DNA from: Adlercreutzia hattorii
GTDB taxonomy: Bacteria > Actinomycetota > Coriobacteriia > Coriobacteriales > Eggerthellaceae
Assembly: GCF_011405655.1 (NCBI RefSeq)
Contig: NZ_AP022829.1
Coordinates: 1,907,001-1,971,000 of the forward strand
Direction: 5' to 3'
DNA: 64,000 nt
The position numbers and the translations under genes are program-made. Shown here in pieces: positions 8,727-63,020 of this stretch. The notes beneath the pieces were generated by a model, which was given only the letters and a program-made list of their open reading frames with translations, was not told the DNA's origin and made no database searches. Numbering within the stretch: position 1 is the first letter of the stretch; every line of letters begins with the position of its first letter.

Positions 8727-8846
8727 GGCACGGGGGATGGCGGGGGCCTCCGTGCTCAAGCAATGGCTCGCTCGGCGGAACAGCCCACTGGGCTGTTCCG
8801 TTCGCTGCGCAACCTGCGCGCGGAGACCCCCGCCATCCCCCGTGCC
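8727..8846. repeat. Nested intergenic palindrome, copy 1
   Basis: A 26-bp outer stem (8727-8752 with 8821-8846) has one non-Watson-Crick position, 8747 with 8826, which would be G-U in a minus-strand RNA. It encloses an 11-bp hairpin at 8777-8799. It sits between the upp stop and the dCMP deaminase ribosome-binding site. The segments flanking the inner hairpin are nearly identical to copy 2, while the outer arms are different sequences. Confidence 0.9.
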
Positions 8847-9540: not shown

Positions 9541-9658
9541 GGTGCGGGGGCGGACGGGGCCTCCGTGCTCAAGCAATGGCTCGCTTTGTGGAACAGTCCA
9601 CTGGACTGTTCCAGTCGCTGCGCAACCTGCGCGCGGAGGCCCCGTCCGCCCCCGCACC
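9541..9658. repeat. Nested intergenic palindrome, copy 2
   Basis: A perfect 25-bp outer stem (9541-9565 with 9634-9658) encloses an 11-bp hairpin at 9590-9612. The inner hairpin differs from copy 1 by a paired change, C-G to T-A, that keeps the stem. It fills the gap between the glyA stop and the upp ribosome-binding site. Confidence 0.92.
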
Positions 9659-42183: not shown

Positions 42184-42310
42184 GCGGGAGGTCGGAGGCG
42201 GAAGTGCCGTGCTCAAACAGCATTCAATGGCAGGGCTCGATGAGGGCCGCATCGTTCTACCCATGCCATTGAATGAACTGCGCGCGGCGCCACCGCCTCC
42301 GACCTCCCGC
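42184..42310. repeat. Nested intergenic palindrome, copy 3
   Basis: A perfect 18-bp outer stem (42184-42201 with 42293-42310) encloses a perfect 12-bp stem (42221-42232 with 42264-42275). It keeps the GTGCTCAA and CTGCGCGCGG shoulders of copies 1 and 2, but both stems are unrelated in sequence. It lies between the ecfT stop and the PNPOx-like gene. Confidence 0.9.
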
Positions 42311-45671: not shown

Positions 45672-45736
45672 TCCATGATGTCGCGTTTCCGTTTGCATCG
45701 GCCCTGTCGGTCGGGGCGCCAGAAACGCGAACGTCT

Positions 45737-45880
45737 GCCTCTTCCATCCGGACTGTAACCGTTGGCCCCGGACTTTCACCGGGTCAGCCTGCGCTCTCGC
45801 ACAGGGTCGCGGGCTTGCCGAGCGCCTAAGGCGCCGCCGTGCTTACCGCCAGTGAGGATTTCCACCTCGCCCTGAAACAG
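45737..45880 (-). ncRNA. FMN riboswitch (RFN element)
   Basis: The minus strand carries the conserved blocks in order: AGGGCGAGGTGGAAATCC, CTGGCGGTAAGC, AAGCCCGCGA, TGACCCGGTGAAAGTCCGG, GGGCCAACGGTTACAGTCC and GGATGGAAGAGG. FMN binding should favour the downstream terminator and stop expression of the riboflavin transporter. Confidence 0.95.
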
Positions 45881-45894
45881 AATTCACGGGGCAC

Positions 45895-52977: not shown

Positions 52978-53079
52978 CACGGGGTGCTGCTCACCAAGCG
53001 AGTTCCGCAGCGAACGAAACAGCCCAGTGGGCTGTTTCGCCGAGCGAGGACAGTACGCGCGACTGAGCAGTACCCCGTG
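52978..53079. repeat. Nested intergenic palindrome, copy 4
   Basis: A 16-bp outer stem (52978-52993 with 53064-53079, one wobble) encloses an 11-bp hairpin at 53015-53039. The inner core ACAGCCCAGTGGGCTGT is nearly that of copy 1, and the left shoulder matches the reverse complement of copy 5. It lies between the secDF stop and the DUF1292 gene. Confidence 0.9.
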
Positions 53080-55796: not shown

Positions 55797-56169
55797 GGGA
55801 TGCGACCTTCTTCTTTCGCGTTCCGTTCTCCTGCGCGTTCTTTATACCGCGCGTTCCTTCTCTCTTGCGCGAAGAGCGCCCAAGCCTCCCCCGAAGCGGC
55901 GCTTTCACTTCAACTTGCCTATTGTGCCACAAATGAACCGAAGGTCAACGCCTGATTCTGACATCACGACAACTAATGCGGCATAATCGGGAGCGCCTCG
56001 GGAGCCTCAGGGGCGCGCCCCAACGTGACAACGCTCCTCCGCTCGGCGGCGAACCCGTGAAACGAGCGTGCTCCAACGCCAGAAGACCCCTCCACCCGGC
56101 GACGAGCGCGCCAAACGAATACACCCGCCTTCGCCTCAAGGCCGCAAGCTATCAATCTGGCTTGGAAAT
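55797..56169. other. Upstream region of secDF
   Basis: About 370 bases hold the secDF leader, with an AT-rich patch near 55840-55990 that may be the promoter. Beyond that, a partial repeat unit at 56156-56169 begins the repeat cluster. No gene is seen. Confidence 0.4.
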
Positions 56170-56433
56170 TGGCTTGGAAATCACGAAACATCGGAATACA
56201 GAGGGAAACGAACCCTACGATCGTCCAAAATGGCTTGGAAATCACGAAACATCGGCGATTGGCGCCTCTCGGCAGGCTATTTCCTTCATTTTTCTGAAGT
56301 TTCCCCAGGTGACGTATTACAACGAAACGCCTTTTTCGCTTTTAGCGCCGATGTTTCGTGATTTCCAAGCCATTTGAAGGCTGAGCACATGCGCTTTTGC
56401 CCCTAAACCCGATGTTTCGTGATTTCCAAGCCA
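56170..56433. repeat. Repeat cluster A: 25-bp sites, two direct and two inverted
   Basis: Two copies of TGGCTTGGAAATCACGAAAC plus ATCGG (56170-56194, 56231-56255) face two inverted copies (56347-56372, 56410-56433). A diverged cluster at 61239-61441 has the same 61-base and 142-base spacings and shares the block AGGTGACGTATTACAACGAA. It sits between the LuxR gene stop and secDF. No coding evidence. Confidence 0.9.
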
Positions 56434-56468
56434 TCCGAGGGCCGGCAGGTTGCGGCGATGACGCCCTA

Positions 56469-57893
56469 TCACGCACCCAACAGCGCCACGAGCTCGCGGC
56501 GGTTCGCGACGCCGCACTTCTCGTAGATGTGGCTCATGTGGGCCTTGAAGGTGCCCTCGGCGATGAACAGCTCCTGCATGATGGCCGGGCCGTTCTTGCC
56601 CTGGGCCACCAGCGCCAGAATCTCGGTTTCCCGCGGAGTGAGACGGGCGTGCTCGGCCAGCTCGGCCGCCCGCTCGTCGCGCCGCAGCTCTTCCGGGGTC
56701 TTCTCCACGAGGCCGCCCGCGTCCAGGATGCGCACGCCCCAGCGGCTCGCCAGCTCCTTCTCGGACAGCAGGATGAGCGTGGCCGCCAACATCATGGCCA
56801 CCACCACAACCGCGATGACCGCGTCCTGGGCGCCGGCGTTCATGCCCGCGGCGGCCATGACCTCGGCGACCCCCTTGCCCCAGATGACGAACACCTGCTC
56901 GGCACCTTTGATGGCGGCGAAGATGACGACCGTGACCCCGAGGCGCTTGACGATGTCGTACAGAAGCAGCGCCACGATGATGCCCACGAGCGAGTAGCTC
57001 ATGGAGATGAGGTAGCTGGACACCGCCGTGCCGAAGACGCCCTCGACGGGCACGAGCAGAAAGCCGCACACGATGAGCACGAGCGGCGAGCGGTACAGCG
57101 TGCCGATGTTGAAGCGGTTCGAGAAGAAGTAGGCGCTCGCGAACAGCACCGCCATGACGATGGCCGTCGAGACCGATGAGTGCATGCCGGCGCCGGCCGC
57201 CAGCTGGTGCTGGCGCAGCCCGTAGGCGAAGGAGTACAGGGCCAGAAGCACGAAGATCTTCCACGGGTAGGTGAACTTCGGAATGACCGGCGAGGGGCGA
57301 TCGGCGACGGGCAGCGCCGAGAAGGCACGGCGCAGGCAGAGCAGCGCCACCGGCGGCAGGATCACCAAAGCGCAGGCCACGCGCAAATCGTCCAGGCCGT
57401 CGCAGAAGAACACGCAGACGACGGCCACCAGCTGGGAGGCCGTCGTGTACAGGAAAATGCGGATGAGCGAGATGCAACTTAAGACCTCGGCCCACAGAAG
57501 CAGGAAGAGGCCGAAGCCCGCGCCTCCCGCCGCCGCGCCCGCGGCCACCAGCGCAATGGCCGCCGGCCCTGCGACCAGGCCGGTGCCGACCGCGATGAGG
57601 CACAGCGACGCCGCGACCATCAGCGCCGCCGACGCCGCGCGCATCCGCCCCGTGGCGTTCAGGGGCAGAAGGCGGCGCGCGGCAAGCGCCGCCGCGATGG
57701 AGACCAGGCAGAAGGCGTAGTCGAAGACGTCGTGCAGATCGAAGGCGGCCGGCAGCGCGAGGGCCGGCGCCGCCACGGCCAGCGTCACCCAAGCGCGGGC
57801 GCAGCCGAGCGCGAACAGGTAGGGCAGAATGCCCCGCAGGTACAGGGAGCGGTCTTCCCTCCCCTTCCGTATGTCCTTCAACAGGTTCCCCAT
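56469..57893 (-). CDS. LuxR-type regulator with multi-spanning membrane domain
   Basis: The 474-aa protein has 10-12 hydrophobic helices and a C-terminal LuxR helix-turn-helix (LTPRETEILALVAQGKNGPAIMQEL, then AEGTFKAHMSHIYEKCG). It has the same architecture as the regulator at 28435 and again lies beside a Tat flavoprotein gene, its probable target. It starts MGNLLKDIRKG; TATAAT ends 7 bases before the ATG and no ribosome-binding site is present, suggesting a leaderless mRNA. Confidence 0.87.
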   Translation of the reverse strand: MGNLLKDIRKGREDRSLYLRGILPYLFALGCARAWVTLAVAAPALALPAAFDLHDVFDYAFCLVSIAAALAARRLLPLNATGRMRAASAALMVAASLCLIAVGTGLVAGPAAIALVAAGAAAGGAGFGLFLLLWAEVLSCISLIRIFLYTTASQLVAVVCVFFCDGLDDLRVACALVILPPVALLCLRRAFSALPVADRPSPVIPKFTYPWKIFVLLALYSFAYGLRQHQLAAGAGMHSSVSTAIVMAVLFASAYFFSNRFNIGTLYRSPLVLIVCGFLLVPVEGVFGTAVSSYLISMSYSLVGIIVALLLYDIVKRLGVTVVIFAAIKGAEQVFVIWGKGVAEVMAAAGMNAGAQDAVIAVVVVAMMLAATLILLSEKELASRWGVRILDAGGLVEKTPEELRRDERAAELAEHARLTPRETEILALVAQGKNGPAIMQELFIAEGTFKAHMSHIYEKCGVANRRELVALLGA

Positions 57894-57900
57894 GGCGGCC

Positions 57901-57909
57901 ATTATAGCA
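57901..57909 (-). promoter_or_regulatory. Extended -10 placed for a leaderless mRNA
   Basis: TGCTATAAT on the minus strand is an extended -10, with its hexamer 7 bases from the ATG at 57893. The spacing is the same as at 26221. Confidence 0.5.
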
Positions 57910-57966
57910 GGTGACAGGGCCGGCCGGCGGCCGGGTCGGCGCTTTCCCGAGGCCTTTGCGGCATCG

Positions 57967-58015
57967 GGGCCGCTAGGGCCGCAAGGGGCCGCAAGAGCCG
58001 CCAAGGGCCGCACGC
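57967..58015. repeat. Short GC tandem repeat
   Basis: Four to five variants of GGCCGCAAG run in tandem in the gap between the flavoprotein stop and the LuxR regulator. Probably slippage-prone. Confidence 0.55.
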
Positions 58016-58078
58016 AGAAGGCCCAGCCGACGGGGAGGGAGCGCCGGCCGGGCACGGGAGGGCGAAACGGCAGGTGGC

Positions 58079-59719
58079 CTACAGGCTCGCCACCAAGCGA
58101 CCGGTGTAGTAGCCCGAGGTGATGGCGCGGCCGATGGAGAGCCCCTCGATGTCCATGGGGTAGTCCACGCCGCCGAAGAACTGGCCCGAGGCGTTGCCCA
58201 CGGCGTACAGGCCGCTGATGGGCTCGAACTCCCCGTTCAGGCACTGGTGGTTGCTATCGACCACGAGGCCGCCCAGGATGGCCGGCAGCTTGTTGGAGCC
58301 GCGGGGGATGGCGTAGTAGGGGCCGCCCTCGATGGGCACGAGGTACTTGGCGGCCTTGCCGAAGTCCTCGTCGCGGCCGGCGGCGCACAGCTCGTTGTAG
58401 CGGGCCACGGTGTCGGCCAGCGCGGCGGCGTCGATGTTCGTGAGCTTCCAATCGTTCTCGGCGGCGTAGGCGTTCATGGCCTCGGCCAAACCCTCGATGG
58501 TGTCTGCGGTGATCCACTTCTCGGGGTTCACCTTGTTGTCGCCGTTGTACTGGGAGATGTCGTAGGGGCTGGCGGCCTTCCACTCCTCGTAGAAACTCTC
58601 CCAGTTCGCGGGCACCAGACTGAAGAACTTCGCCGCCGTGGAGTCGGTGAAGCCGGCCTTCGCCAGGTACGGGCGGACGAAGTTGTTCATGTAGCCCATG
58701 CGGCAGCAGGTCTCGTCCATGAAGCGGTTGCCCTCCTGGTCGACGAAGAGGAAGGGCATCTCCAGGCGCACGGCCGCCGGCTCGCCGTGGATCATCTTGG
58801 TGTGGGTGTGCGGCGTCATGATGGCCCCGGCGTTCATGCCGGCCACCAGAGCGCTGCCGTCGCGGAAATCGGTGAACAGCGAGAAGCCCTTAGTGTCCGG
58901 CGCGTAGTAGTCGAGCATCTCCTGGTTGGAGGAGTAGTCGCCGCAGGCCAGAATAACGCCCTTGGTCGCCGTGAACAGGTGGTGCGCCCCGTCGGCATCC
59001 TCGCAGATGGCGCCCGTGACCGCGCCGGACTCGTCAGTGGCCAGCTGCTTGCAGGGCATGTTGTAGAAGAACTCGGCGCCGGCGGCGGCCAGGTTCTCGG
59101 CGATCACCGTGGCGGCGGCGTTGTGGTTGCCCTCCACGTGGAAGTAGGTGTTGGCGTGCAGGTGGATGTCGTAGCCGTTGTAGGAGAGCACCGCGTCGTG
59201 GGGCTTGCTTTCCACGCCGCCCTTCGCCGCCTCCTCGGCCCACCAGGCCAGCGCCTCCTGGGAATTGTGGGCCCAGATGTTCACGAGGTCGCGGTTGGAG
59301 CGGTAGTCGCTCTTCCAGTTGATGAAGCTCACGCAGGCCTGGACGGCGGCCTCGTCGGTCTGGGTGAGGTCGATGGAGGCGGCCATGTTGCCGGTGGTCT
59401 GGGCGGCGTTGATGTTCTGCACGCAGGCCACGCGCGCCCCGGCCTCGAGCGCGGTATGCACGGCGGACAGGCCCGACTCGCCGGCGCCGACCACGACGAC
59501 GTCGTACTCGTGGGTCTCGGCGAAATCGGTGATGGGCTCCTGGGGCGCGAGGAACGCGGGGCCGGCAGCGGCGCCCGTGTCGGCCAGGCCCTTCTCGGCG
59601 GCGGCCTCGGCGACGGTCTTGGGCTGGCCGCAGCCGGCGAGCGTGCTGGCGCCGGCCACGCCGAGCGCGGCCAGGCCGCCGAACTTGAACAGATCGCGAC
59701 GAGTAACGGTGGTGGTCAT
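58079..59719 (-). CDS. Tat-exported FAD-dependent reductase (fumarate/urocanate reductase-like)
   Basis: The 546-aa protein starts MTTTVTRRDLFKFGGLAALG, a Tat signal with Arg7-Arg8, then LAGCGQ, a possible lipobox. The FAD fold is YDVVVVGAGESGLSAVHTAL and the closing segment GLYAVGNASGQFFGGVDYPMDIEGLSIGRA. No heme or FMN attachment motif is present. Family members reduce fumarate-like acids or other acceptors with electrons from a cytochrome. GAGGGAG precedes the ATG. The acceptor is unknown. Confidence 0.85.
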   Translation of the reverse strand: MTTTVTRRDLFKFGGLAALGVAGASTLAGCGQPKTVAEAAAEKGLADTGAAAGPAFLAPQEPITDFAETHEYDVVVVGAGESGLSAVHTALEAGARVACVQNINAAQTTGNMAASIDLTQTDEAAVQACVSFINWKSDYRSNRDLVNIWAHNSQEALAWWAEEAAKGGVESKPHDAVLSYNGYDIHLHANTYFHVEGNHNAAATVIAENLAAAGAEFFYNMPCKQLATDESGAVTGAICEDADGAHHLFTATKGVILACGDYSSNQEMLDYYAPDTKGFSLFTDFRDGSALVAGMNAGAIMTPHTHTKMIHGEPAAVRLEMPFLFVDQEGNRFMDETCCRMGYMNNFVRPYLAKAGFTDSTAAKFFSLVPANWESFYEEWKAASPYDISQYNGDNKVNPEKWITADTIEGLAEAMNAYAAENDWKLTNIDAAALADTVARYNELCAAGRDEDFGKAAKYLVPIEGGPYYAIPRGSNKLPAILGGLVVDSNHQCLNGEFEPISGLYAVGNASGQFFGGVDYPMDIEGLSIGRAITSGYYTGRLVASL

Positions 59720-60092
59720 GGTGAACTCCCTCTCTTTCCGTTGCGCGGGACGCCTCTCATGCGCCCTCGTGCCTCTCCTTGCGCCGGGCGCTCCTTCGCG
59801 CCCTGCGCTTTGTCGGGCGCCGCGCGCCCTCCTTGACAGATGCCGCCCGGGGAACCACGACCGCGGCCTTCACCGCCGCTCTCGCACTCGGGCAGCCTTC
59901 CAGCTGCCGCCCGAGTACGGCACCCCGCGACAACCTTCAACTGGTGTGCGGGCTCGGCGCCCCGTGACGATCCCCACTATGGACGCCGCCGCGCCATCGC
60001 GCATCGGAAAGCGAGCGAGAAAAAGATTATTCTCGTAATCTTTTCCCTAATCCTTTACTCTGAACTGGGAAAACTATTTTCTTGAAAAGCAC
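59720..60092. other. Gap upstream of the Tat flavoprotein
   Basis: The gap holds a GC hairpin at about 59886-59918 (CTCGGGCAG with CTGCCGCCCGAG) and a strongly AT-rich patch at 60019-60085 containing the palindrome annotated separately. Open frames here have no ribosome-binding site and were not accepted. Confidence 0.5.
60021..60044. promoter_or_regulatory. AT-rich perfect palindrome
   Basis: AAAAGATTA and TAATCTTTT pair around 6 bases. It could be an operator for the downstream Tat flavoprotein or a terminator for the gene ending at 60093. It contrasts with the GC-rich surroundings. Confidence 0.5.
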
Positions 60093-61154
60093 CTAGCGAG
60101 GCTGCTCTTTGAGACAGTAATCCTCCAACGACCAACCCATGCGGAACAGGAGAGCTTGCTGATTCGCGAATTCCTTGCTTTGGGGGCGAAATCTTTTGCC
60201 CCGCCGGCGATAGCACTGCTCGGCGATGCGCCGCATCTCGCCCGAGCTGCCAATCTGCCCCGCCGTCACGGTGACGACCTTGTAGCCGTCCGTCTCAAGC
60301 GCCAGGCGCTTCTGGGCGTCTCTCGTCAGCTGCGAAGAGCTGGTGTGCTCGGCCGTTGAGTCGTACTCGATCGCAAGGCGAGCATCAGCAAAGAGGATAT
60401 CAGGGACGAGCGTGGTGCGGCGTGCTATCTGCTGAGCCTTGTGGCTCGGCCGCAACCGCCGGTTTACCGCAAGGTCTGAGAGCTGAAAGCCGCCATAGCG
60501 GTAAGGCAGCCCGAACACCATAGCGAGAAACGCCTCTGGAGGAGAGGCCGCACCTTCCGTAACCCACGGGAGCGCCCGGCGAGCCTCCTTCACGCCTTTA
60601 ATTCCAGGGTTGGCGCGGATAAAGGCCTCGATGCGCCTCTTCGAGGTAAGAGGCTCGCGTCGCCCAAGCTCGCCACCCTTCCCAGCGTCGAGGTAGAAGC
60701 GCCCGCAAAGCACATTGCCCGCGCGAACGAGCTCGTGAAAAGGAAGCGACTGCGCAAGCTGCACGAAGCAGAGCTCGGGACAGGAGACGAACACGCCGCT
60801 TTCCACGCGGCAGAAATCCTTTCCCTTCGGCATGCGAACCACAAGATGGCAGATCGCTTCCGACAATGGCCTTTTAGCATGAGACGTCGTAGAGACATGA
60901 TACGGCCGGGGCAAAAACGGAAAGAGCCTCCCCAAATGACGCAGCGCCTCAAGAACAGGCTCGCAATTCTTCAGGATCTTCGCCGACACCTTGCACGAGG
61001 CGTCAGGCGCCGACGGCGCGCAAAGCCAGTAGGAGAAAGCCGATATGCCAAAGAGGATCAACCGCATTCGCGGCATTCTAAGACCTCTGCTCGCCACGTG
61101 TTCTCGGAATAACGCGATACATGAAATATCCTCTGCTGAAAGTAAATGCATCAT
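60093..61154 (-). CDS. DUF559/AbiEi-like protein with endonuclease-like C-terminus
   Basis: The protein of about 353 aa ends in PDILFADARLAIEYDSTAEH and a following VVTVTAGQI segment, which resembles Vsr/PD-(D/E)XK-like DUF559 domains. The N-terminal half resembles AbiEi-type proteins only weakly. The start is uncertain: ATG at 61154 or further upstream; no clear ribosome-binding site. Role unknown; defence or TA-linked functions are guesses from the fold. Confidence 0.55.
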   Translation of the reverse strand: MMHLLSAEDISCIALFREHVASRGLRMPRMRLILFGISAFSYWLCAPSAPDASCKVSAKILKNCEPVLEALRHLGRLFPFLPRPYHVSTTSHAKRPLSEAICHLVVRMPKGKDFCRVESGVFVSCPELCFVQLAQSLPFHELVRAGNVLCGRFYLDAGKGGELGRREPLTSKRRIEAFIRANPGIKGVKEARRALPWVTEGAASPPEAFLAMVFGLPYRYGGFQLSDLAVNRRLRPSHKAQQIARRTTLVPDILFADARLAIEYDSTAEHTSSSQLTRDAQKRLALETDGYKVVTVTAGQIGSSGEMRRIAEQCYRRRGKRFRPQSKEFANQQALLFRMGWSLEDYCLKEQPR

Positions 61155-61238
61155 CTTTTGCCGAGCAGAGCGTCCTACTGCCGGCACAGAGCCCCCGCGT
61201 CGCCCATACGCCACCTTCTCCGCGCAAAGCTGGCATGA

Positions 61239-61441
61239 TGGCTTGAAAATGACGAAAGATCGGAATGCAGAAGAAAATCAGCGCTTCAATCGCCTGAAAT
61301 GGCTTGAAAAACACGAAAGATCGGCAGTTGGCGCCCCAAAAAGAACGGTGATGTCTCGATTCGCAGAGTTTTCCCAGGTGGCGTATTACAACGAAACGCG
61401 TTTTTCGCCTCCGACGCCGATGTTTCGTGATTTTCAAGCCA
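61239..61441. repeat. Repeat cluster B, homologue of the cluster at 56170
   Basis: Two direct sites (61239-61263, 61300-61325) and one inverted site (61416-61441) match cluster A at the same spacings, with about 20 percent base differences. The block ATTACAACGAAACGC is conserved. It lies in the 509-base gap between queA and the DUF559-like gene; the rest of that gap (61442-61663) shows nothing recognisable. Confidence 0.88.
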
Positions 61442-62824: not shown

Positions 62825-63020
62825 GCCGGAGGCCGAGGGGGTGCTCGCAGCCCGCTGATCGCTTTATCCCCCTCCGAACGTGATAAAAGAATCAGCGAAG
62901 ATGACGCACATAGGCGGGTACCATCCCGGCATCGCTGCTGCTGAAGTGGAAGCTGATTCTTGACGATCGCGTTCTCCGGGGGGCGATCAGAGGTCTGTGA
63001 GCACCCCCTCGGCCTCCGGC
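62825..63020. repeat. Nested intergenic palindrome, copy 6
   Basis: A perfect 22-bp outer stem (62825-62846 with 62999-63020) encloses two further stems: CTGATCGC/GCGATCAG (62855-62862 with 62983-62990) and AAGAATCAGC/GCTGATTCTT (62887-62896 with 62952-62961). It is the largest copy and lies between the divergent queA and tgt starts. Confidence 0.92.

Follow-up and report, generated by a model that had tools for sequence, protein, structure and literature searches.

Phased inverted repeat elements associated with genes for probable PD-(D/E)XK nucleases across a bacterial order

The chromosome of Adlercreutzia hattorii (order Coriobacteriales; NZ_AP022829.1) carries two clusters of 25-bp repeat sites in the window analyzed here, a stretch of 64,000 nucleotides comprising bases 1907001-1971000 of a single-contig 2.9 Mb genome (window position equals genome coordinate minus 1907000). 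Our analysis indicates that these clusters are two members of a family of small non-coding elements, and that elements with unrelated arm sequences and the same layout lie beside genes for a probable nuclease. The pattern, seen across a bacterial order, is a gene-and-repeat partnership, and the association between gene and element is almost certainly real. The explanation that we favor, and give about an even chance, is that each cluster is a copy of a small non-coding DNA element in a partnership resembling that of REPINs with RAYTs, formed here with an unrelated nuclease.

Anatomy of the elements in the A. hattorii genome

An earlier note on this DNA, made from the letters alone, described two diverged clusters with sites in direct and then inverted order, and this was borne out, with seven sites located as claimed. 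Its distances are also correct: 61 between the first and second sites in both clusters, and an outer span of 142 from the second to the inverted site in both. The roughly 20 percent substitution without change in length that it reported agrees with gap-free identities of 79% and 80% over 97 and 103 nt, and the central block is kept in each cluster. Beyond that description, cluster 1 has a fourth, inverted site (56409-56433) lying 61 from its neighbor, and its R1 and R1' sites extend into a perfect inverted match of 30 nt (56228-56257 / 56346-56375). The sites are as follows.

56170-56194, plus strand: arm site R2 of element 1, TGGCTTGGAAATCACGAAACATCGG, 0 mismatches to the family pattern
56231-56255, plus strand: arm site R1 of element 1, 61 bp from R2
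56300-56322, plus strand: conserved center of element 1, TTTCCCCAGGTGACGTATTACAA, with CCAGG (CCWGG), 2 mismatches to TTTTCCCAGGTNGNGTATTACAA
56348-56372, minus strand: arm site R1' of element 1, pattern match
56409-56433, minus strand: arm site R2' of element 1, pattern match
61239-61263, plus strand: arm site R2 of element 2, pattern match
61300-61324, plus strand: arm site R1 of element 2, pattern match
61369-61391, plus strand: conserved center of element 2, TTTTCCCAGGTGGCGTATTACAA, with CCAGG, 0 mismatches to TTTTCCCAGGTNGNGTATTACAA
61417-61441, minus strand: arm site R1' of element 2, pattern match

The genome-wide search that the note had suggested turned up more copies, the two clusters being two of eight loci at scattered positions (near 562.7, 647.3, 994.8, 1239.7, 1730.7, 1963.3, 1968.3, and 2739.7 kb). 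At three or fewer mismatches, the own-genome pattern search gave 26 site matches in 2.9 Mb, all within these eight loci, and the reversed pattern gave none in the same genome at the same limit; the repeat sites are not due to chance. Neighboring direct sites are 61 apart from start to start (51 twice, at the 994 locus) and inner inverted sites 117-118 apart, while the center motif TTTTCCCAGGTNGNGTATTACAA has seven genome matches at three or fewer mismatches, all inside elements of seven loci. Six of the eight elements span 142 nt and, oriented by their centers, align without gaps (the remaining two span 143 nt). Among these six, mean pairwise identity is 0.89 in the arms and 0.69 in the center, and 0.32 and 0.42 in the two 25-nt spacers (0.30 and 0.40 with the closest pair removed). 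Length and arms are thus kept while the spacers are near random. The elements end in terminal inverted repeats that begin TG and finish CA, and directly outside the outer arm lie truncated arm-start repeats, CTGGCTTGGAAAT before TGGCTTGGAAAT (window 56153-56181; locus L015 near 562660), which may point to slippage at element ends or to their partial duplication.

A coding sequence was rejected, as no reading frame of the six is stop-free in every one of the six elements, each being stopped in at least one. Speaking against a structured RNA are an Rfam scan, which at the gathering threshold had no match at the clusters, and an arm-pairing permutation test that found no compensatory change preserving base pairs. 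When all eight elements are compared, the two inner arms within an element show 2.5 differences in 25 positions and arms taken from different elements 2.46, and 3194 of 5000 permutations were as good as the observed pairing. The inner arms of an element therefore do not covary, which points to DNA and not to an RNA hairpin; each arm behaves as a DNA site in its own right, and pairing is not what is kept. The note had offered a functional DNA or RNA element or a non-autonomous mobile element; the copies, the kept arms and spacing, and the presence and absence described below favor the DNA and mobile readings, and the RNA reading is not supported.

Genes near the elements, as named by Pfam, include SecDF, a LuxR-type regulator, an FAD-binding reductase, QueA, and HIT. 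The solo elements of this genome adjoin unrelated genes (RelA/SpoT, MFS, HipA, sodium:solute symporter, and HIT), with DUF2344 also among the Pfam-named neighbors.

The nuclease gene and its flanking elements

Beside the second cluster lies the presumed cognate gene.

60093-61067, minus strand: probable PD-(D/E)XK nuclease gene; 324 aa from the MR-start common to homologs, the open frame reaching 61214

Judged from its sequence, the product is probably a PD-(D/E)XK nuclease of Vsr/DUF559/MTES_1575-like type: of the restriction-nuclease models, MTES_1575 is weakly matched by 14 of 16 homologs and DUF559 by 11 of 16 (best E 1.9e-5 and 0.001). Homologs were found in 334 of 395 genomes of the order and 97 of 123 genera, and each genus genome has 4-9 matches; the order-wide search scored about five candidates per genome, so that its member numbers are lower bounds. 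No phage or viral relative was found in the viral contigs searched, and a plasmid collection yielded one relative, a Collinsella record.

In three relatives (G001, G002, and G004), arm pairs flank the homolog of this gene on both sides, and the unrelated arm families found around other homologs share one layout, that of inverted pair, gene, inverted pair. Inverted pairs were sought within limits of 115-236 bp, and the elements found span 116-236 bp. Such a pair is close to 33 of 45 homologs within the genus, 48 of the 54 pairs lying within 500 bp of the gene, and to 31 of 36 homologs from other genera, where 39 of 41 pairs lie within that distance and the median distance is 83 bp. Within the genus, the pair is upstream only at 12 loci, downstream only at 7, on both sides at 14, and absent at 12; the corresponding figures outside the genus are 16, 7, 8, and 5. 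The 36 other-genus homologs were drawn from genera among the matches listed, taking the first listed place per genus with a start of at least 1500 before the flanks were viewed, and the sample is without five genera whose listed places start below 1500 (g11, g20, g112, g114, and g122). Control stretches of about 65 kb held one inverted pair, in a HIT locus; the controls of this strict count are few (7 HIT loci, 3 unrelated loci, and 9 other places, with QueA/SecDF loci excluded).

By a fixed rule, 25 of 50 genus loci have matching elements bracketing the gene (23 of 45 when five repeats, L150, L151, L152, L156, and L157, two of them bracketed, are left out), as do 10 of 36 other-genus loci, and the same rule found none bracketed among 23 control loci, all of them orthologs of QueA, HIT, or SecDF. 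The orthologous loci L116-L118 are counted separately in the bracketing, CCWGG, arm-similarity, and pair counts. At three loci the gene lies between direct near-duplicate elements, with identities of 164/168 and 121/140 at L130 and L164 and 154/159 at L194, and at the first two the duplicates cease to be homologous no more than about 10 bases from the arm ends.

Keeping one best pair per flank gave 73 elements. In 33 of them CCWGG lies no more than 24 bp from the midpoint (mean 6 and maximum 14 in shuffles). The enrichment is mainly in the genus, where 25 of 43 elements have it (shuffles mean 3.7, maximum 9), and ACCTGG, on either strand, is central in 23 elements and elsewhere in one. Vsr enzymes act at CCWGG-related sites, which makes the element center a candidate cutting site.

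Arm families, spans, and change between species

Different nuclease paralogs carry different, locus-specific arm families. Arm similarity was compared for 64 elements (E at or below 1e-3). In that set the two arms within an element are alike by construction, and independent information comes only from comparing arms across a gene. Arms flanking the same gene on opposite sides reach a median score of 23.5, with 12 of 14 scoring at least 20, and arms of different loci have medians of 6 to 8.5 except in the four most similar protein pairs. Over all 50 loci, protein similarity tracks arm similarity (4 of 2000 permutations as good). In A. hattorii itself, the six solo-only loci match the arms beside the gene at 60093-61067 with scores of 23-25, other sampled paralogs of this genome reaching at most 7 and other genomes at most 16. 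A second arm family is present in the window.

542-760, no strand assigned: solo element with another arm family, 55-nt arms, CCTGG near its center

Its arms match the flanks of loci L143 and L151 (best E 1.2e-12), and the elements there surround a second paralog of this genome (G000:C1:1015432-1016247).

The window copy, used as a DNA query, had no match in 59 relatives, because the arms are species-specific. The idea that the family is confined to one genome was overturned by a diverged copy in the SecDF-QueA interval of relative G005 and by a search with that copy. Of 137 other genomes in the family, 25 have one or two chance-like matches to the A. hattorii arm pattern itself, and the exact site has three single matches in unrelated GTDB genomes and none in IMG/VR; the window copy showed no similarity to phage and plasmid records. 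A looser pattern, TGGCTTGNAA(112-142)TTNCAAGCCA, was used for the genus-wide element search with an allowed span of 132-162, and returned 27 elements in seven of nine genus genomes, none in 386 other genomes, and none with a reversed control. TGGCTTG is common to the arms, and the second half of the arm varies by species and locus.

The inverted spans of these 27 elements fall at 142/143 (18 elements), 153/154 (7), and 162 (2), all other values from 132 to 162 being empty; the preferred spans step by about one helical turn. Their phase coherence at 10.5 bp is 0.936, a value reached by none of 20000 uniform draws (0.93 in a hand-thinned set of 22), although element copies share descent and the draws are to that extent non-independent. 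Steps of a helical turn are expected if proteins must face each other across the DNA.

Elements come and go between species. At the 1730 (HIT) locus, flanking matches lie 20-59 bp apart in five relatives versus 259-292 in A. hattorii, and the interval is about 105 bp, with the element absent, in G007 and G008, making seven relatives without it in all. Similarly, SecDF and the LuxR-type gene are 25 bp apart in G001 versus 500 in this genome. The search in relatives that the earlier note advised thus found diverged copies, and at two compared places the DNA that holds the element is absent from relatives. Synteny links the 2739 locus of A. hattorii with G001 and G005 and its 994 locus with G002 (its other solo loci match none of 20 fetched loci), and at both loci the syntenic elements of the other species carry arms unlike its own. 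Measured from a conserved upstream sequence, the element starts of G001 and G005 agree to within one base, and in this genome the element begins about 110 bp further on; the second half of both arms is alike within each of these two species and different between them. Re-insertion at a hotspot could be an alternative source of different arms at syntenic elements. In two ortholog trios the arms differ at 0-1 of 27 positions, the spacers at 0-6 of 24-25, and the flanks by 1-17%.

The SecDF-QueA interval (window 55.8-61.66 kb) is a hotspot: it holds LuxR-type, FAD-reductase, and nuclease genes in A. hattorii, G001, G002, and G004, and measures about 200 and 465 bp in G003 and G005, leaving no room for a nuclease gene. 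In the SecDF-LuxR interval of locus L071 (G007:C112) there are what look, by eye, like several imperfect direct repeats in steps of about 60 bp with TTTGGTTCC-like motifs, possibly another arm family.

Other repeats and features of the window are the following.

8727-8846, 9541-9658, and 42184-42310: three GC-rich inverted repeats, span 118-127, similar arm ends (CCGTGCTCA / TGCGCGCGG), without a CCWGG center; perhaps another repeat family or attenuators
8767-8813 and 53002-53048: 47-nt inverted copies, 94% complementary and 44 kb apart, with AACAGCCCA(C/G)TGGGCTGTT-like palindromes
45732-45883, minus strand: FMN riboswitch, 100.5 bits in the Rfam scan
62825-63020: 38-nt inverted repeat, 92% complementary, upstream of the QueA gene

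Standing of the proposed partnership

Under the explanation we favor, inverted arms of about 25-55 bp, two per element and at most four, would be helically phased around a center that often has CCWGG, with arm families going with individual nuclease paralogs and each gene carrying one or two elements at its flanks. The nuclease would bind both arms of a pair on the same face of the DNA, so that the center forms a loop, and would nick or cut at or near that center, after which repair or recombination could copy or duplicate the elements. Arms and nuclease would co-evolve, the arms changing when recognition changes, and the nuclease would maintain the dispersed solo elements as non-autonomous companions, as RAYTs have been proposed to do for REPINs. 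Recognition of the arms by the nuclease is probable, while its mobilizing or copying the elements is an evenly balanced proposal. More tentatively, and with somewhat less confidence than in the partnership itself, we suggest that the order holds many such nuclease-repeat pairs, in which diversified Vsr/DUF559-like nucleases may each recognize, cut at the central CCWGG of, and propagate their own phased palindromic element. This would be a counterpart of RAYT/REPIN of independent origin, in which a PD-(D/E)XK enzyme acts on double strands and the long recognition arms have been re-targeted naturally.

A number of observations weigh against this explanation. Binding, cutting, and movement are all putative, being read from sequence comparisons. 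As to the nuclease, the MTES_1575/DUF559 matches are weak and below the Pfam cut-offs where scores are shown, the assignment rests partly on PD and ExD residues that are invariant among the homologs, the only PDB profile match (the mobile-intron nuclease 3r3p, E 0.48) is non-significant, and a single-sequence structure model of the gene product is of low confidence (predicted local distance difference test score, pLDDT, 38). Element 2 lies on the 5' side of the window gene and none was found on its 3' side, and no arm pair was found at 5 of the 36 other-genus and 12 of the 45 genus nuclease loci. Under the bracketing rule, which is looser than the strict pair count, some inverted pair, bracketing aside, is present at 29 of 36 other-genus loci and also at 9 of 23 control loci, part of which hold elements of this family. 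Central CCWGG is missing from 40 of the 73 elements and is present in only 8 of 30 outside the genus (shuffles mean 2.2, maximum 7), and at the 994 locus the own-genome search, at three or fewer mismatches, did not find the usual center motif. Outside the genus, where 23 loci were compared, the correlation of arm with protein was undetected (333 of 2000 permutations as good). Among dispersed copies in relatives, the match of the arms to a nuclease locus of the same genome is poor in G005 and G006 (scores up to 8), partial in G003 (15-16), and uneven in G001, G002, and G004 (25 in 3 of 13 loci, 11-19 in the other 10); several match a G008 locus better than that of their own genome, and some have no sampled cognate gene. 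Finally, no clear target duplication, for which the earlier note had advised looking, was seen by eye in the flanks of the eight A. hattorii copies, and the copies look old.

The closest known system is that of REPINs and RAYTs (TnpA-REP, REPtron). There, too, intergenic inverted doublets belong to a class tied to one flanked enzyme gene, distinct paralogs have distinct classes, solo doublets occur elsewhere, and co-evolution has been proposed (PMC3116915, PMC8266576); RAYTs have also been proposed to copy REPINs (PMC3116915). As in such doublets, the elements here are inverted, of a gene-specific class, and dispersed, the specificity of the dispersed copies being clear in A. hattorii and uneven in relatives. 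The differences are nonetheless considerable. The linked enzyme is PD-(D/E)XK-like by weak matches, in contrast to the Y1/HUH transposase of IS200/IS605 ancestry, and no Y1 transposase was among the Pfam matches of the linked genes. Each REP is a palindrome, whereas the one A. hattorii arm tested folds at -1.8 kcal/mol and forms no stable palindrome. Large REP classes carry a GTAG or CGTC tag (PMC3733652); GTAG is absent from 26 A. hattorii arms, and CGTC occurs only where a variable base yields it. The elements here are 116-236 bp long, with a center that often has CCWGG and steps of a helical turn, and eight loci stand against more than 100 REPs per genome (PMC2817692). This is not a RAYT/REPIN system, because both enzyme and repeat differ.

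Autoregulation is the strongest of the rival explanations, and we consider it unlikely. The protein would be a DNA-binding regulator, the elements its operators, and the solo elements a small regulon. The short distances outside the genus (median 83 bp), the upstream-only (16 of 36) and two-sided (8) placement of the pairs there, and the fit of phased inverted sites to DNA looping all speak for it, and there is a precedent in AbiEi and Rv2827c, protein genes with adjoining inverted repeats, whose products bind 23-bp inverted repeats within their own promoters (PMC7319586). In the elements described here, however, the arms are far apart around a conserved center and occur on either or both sides of the gene, or solo, and the AbiEi family was absent among the Pfam matches of 16 homologs. 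Downstream-only pairs (7 of 36 and 7 of 45 loci), the unrelated genes that the A. hattorii solo elements adjoin, and near-identical whole-element duplicates, which together with presence and absence between species look like moving units, also argue against operators.

A homing-type selfish gene is slightly less likely still. The solo element would be the target, and a central cut repaired from a gene-bearing copy would give the arrangement of element, gene, element, with solo elements as targets or remnants. Genes between direct near-duplicate elements would fit, as would the SecDF-QueA interval, with its nuclease homolog in G001, G002, and G004 and without room for one in G003 and G005, and homing has been proposed for the spread of phage nuclease genes (PMC10448857). 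Homing endonucleases of the Vsr-like kind also resemble the present case in that their gene is linked to the presumed recognition DNA and in that the nuclease fold class is possibly the same, by the weak, non-significant match to 3r3p, which we take to be I-Bth0305I, a Vsr-like homing endonuclease. Homing normally destroys its target, however, and here two intact elements persist around many genes; this is not a standard homing gene because intact elements remain around it at 25 of 50 and 10 of 36 loci. At many gene loci the element is on one side only. Moreover, at 26 of 27 dispersed loci, a set to which the gene-linked loci of G001, G002, and G004 do not belong, the fetched stretch (about 2-5 kb each side) contains no nuclease homolog, the exception being the window locus, and no phage or viral relatives appeared in the viral contigs searched. 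Dispersed gene-less copies, locus-specific arms, and a setting in bacterial chromosomes rather than phage introns further set the present elements apart.

We regard it as improbable that the elements are chromosome-organizing or partition sites for another host protein, with the nuclease gene merely a frequent neighbor. The strong preference for helical-turn spans and the arms conserved in place in two ortholog trios would suit such sites, but the eight A. hattorii positions are scattered and the arm families are paralog-specific, and a single host protein would not explain different arm families for each nuclease paralog. Least probable is a classical miniature inverted-repeat transposable element (MITE) of an unrecognized transposon, with no role for the nuclease: like bacterial MITEs the elements are small, non-coding, intergenic, dispersed, and bounded by TG...CA inverted ends, and one is absent from seven relatives at the HIT locus, but their interior spacers are nearly randomized although length and arms are kept, their arm families go with nuclease loci and vary by species at syntenic sites, and neither a clear target duplication (eight flanks, by eye) nor a parent transposase was found, the arms occurring only in the eight loci in an own-genome pattern search that bears on an autonomous transposon with the same ends, not every neighboring frame being identified.

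We found no description of such a nuclease paired with repeats among the open-access titles and abstract openings listed (subscription papers and preprints fell mostly outside the scope of this search), and as far as could be searched the gene-and-repeat partnership has not been described before. If the partnership is as we propose, a large unnamed protein family of the order would acquire a testable role together with a specific DNA partner, and the RAYTs would be joined by a second, unrelated class of enzyme in maintaining short palindromic repeats in bacterial genomes. Many of the genes come with a long candidate recognition sequence of their own, so that dozens of nuclease-site pairs occurring in nature would be directly assayable, and the species-differing arms at syntenic elements would let one follow, as a natural experiment, how a DNA-binding protein changes along with its scattered sites.

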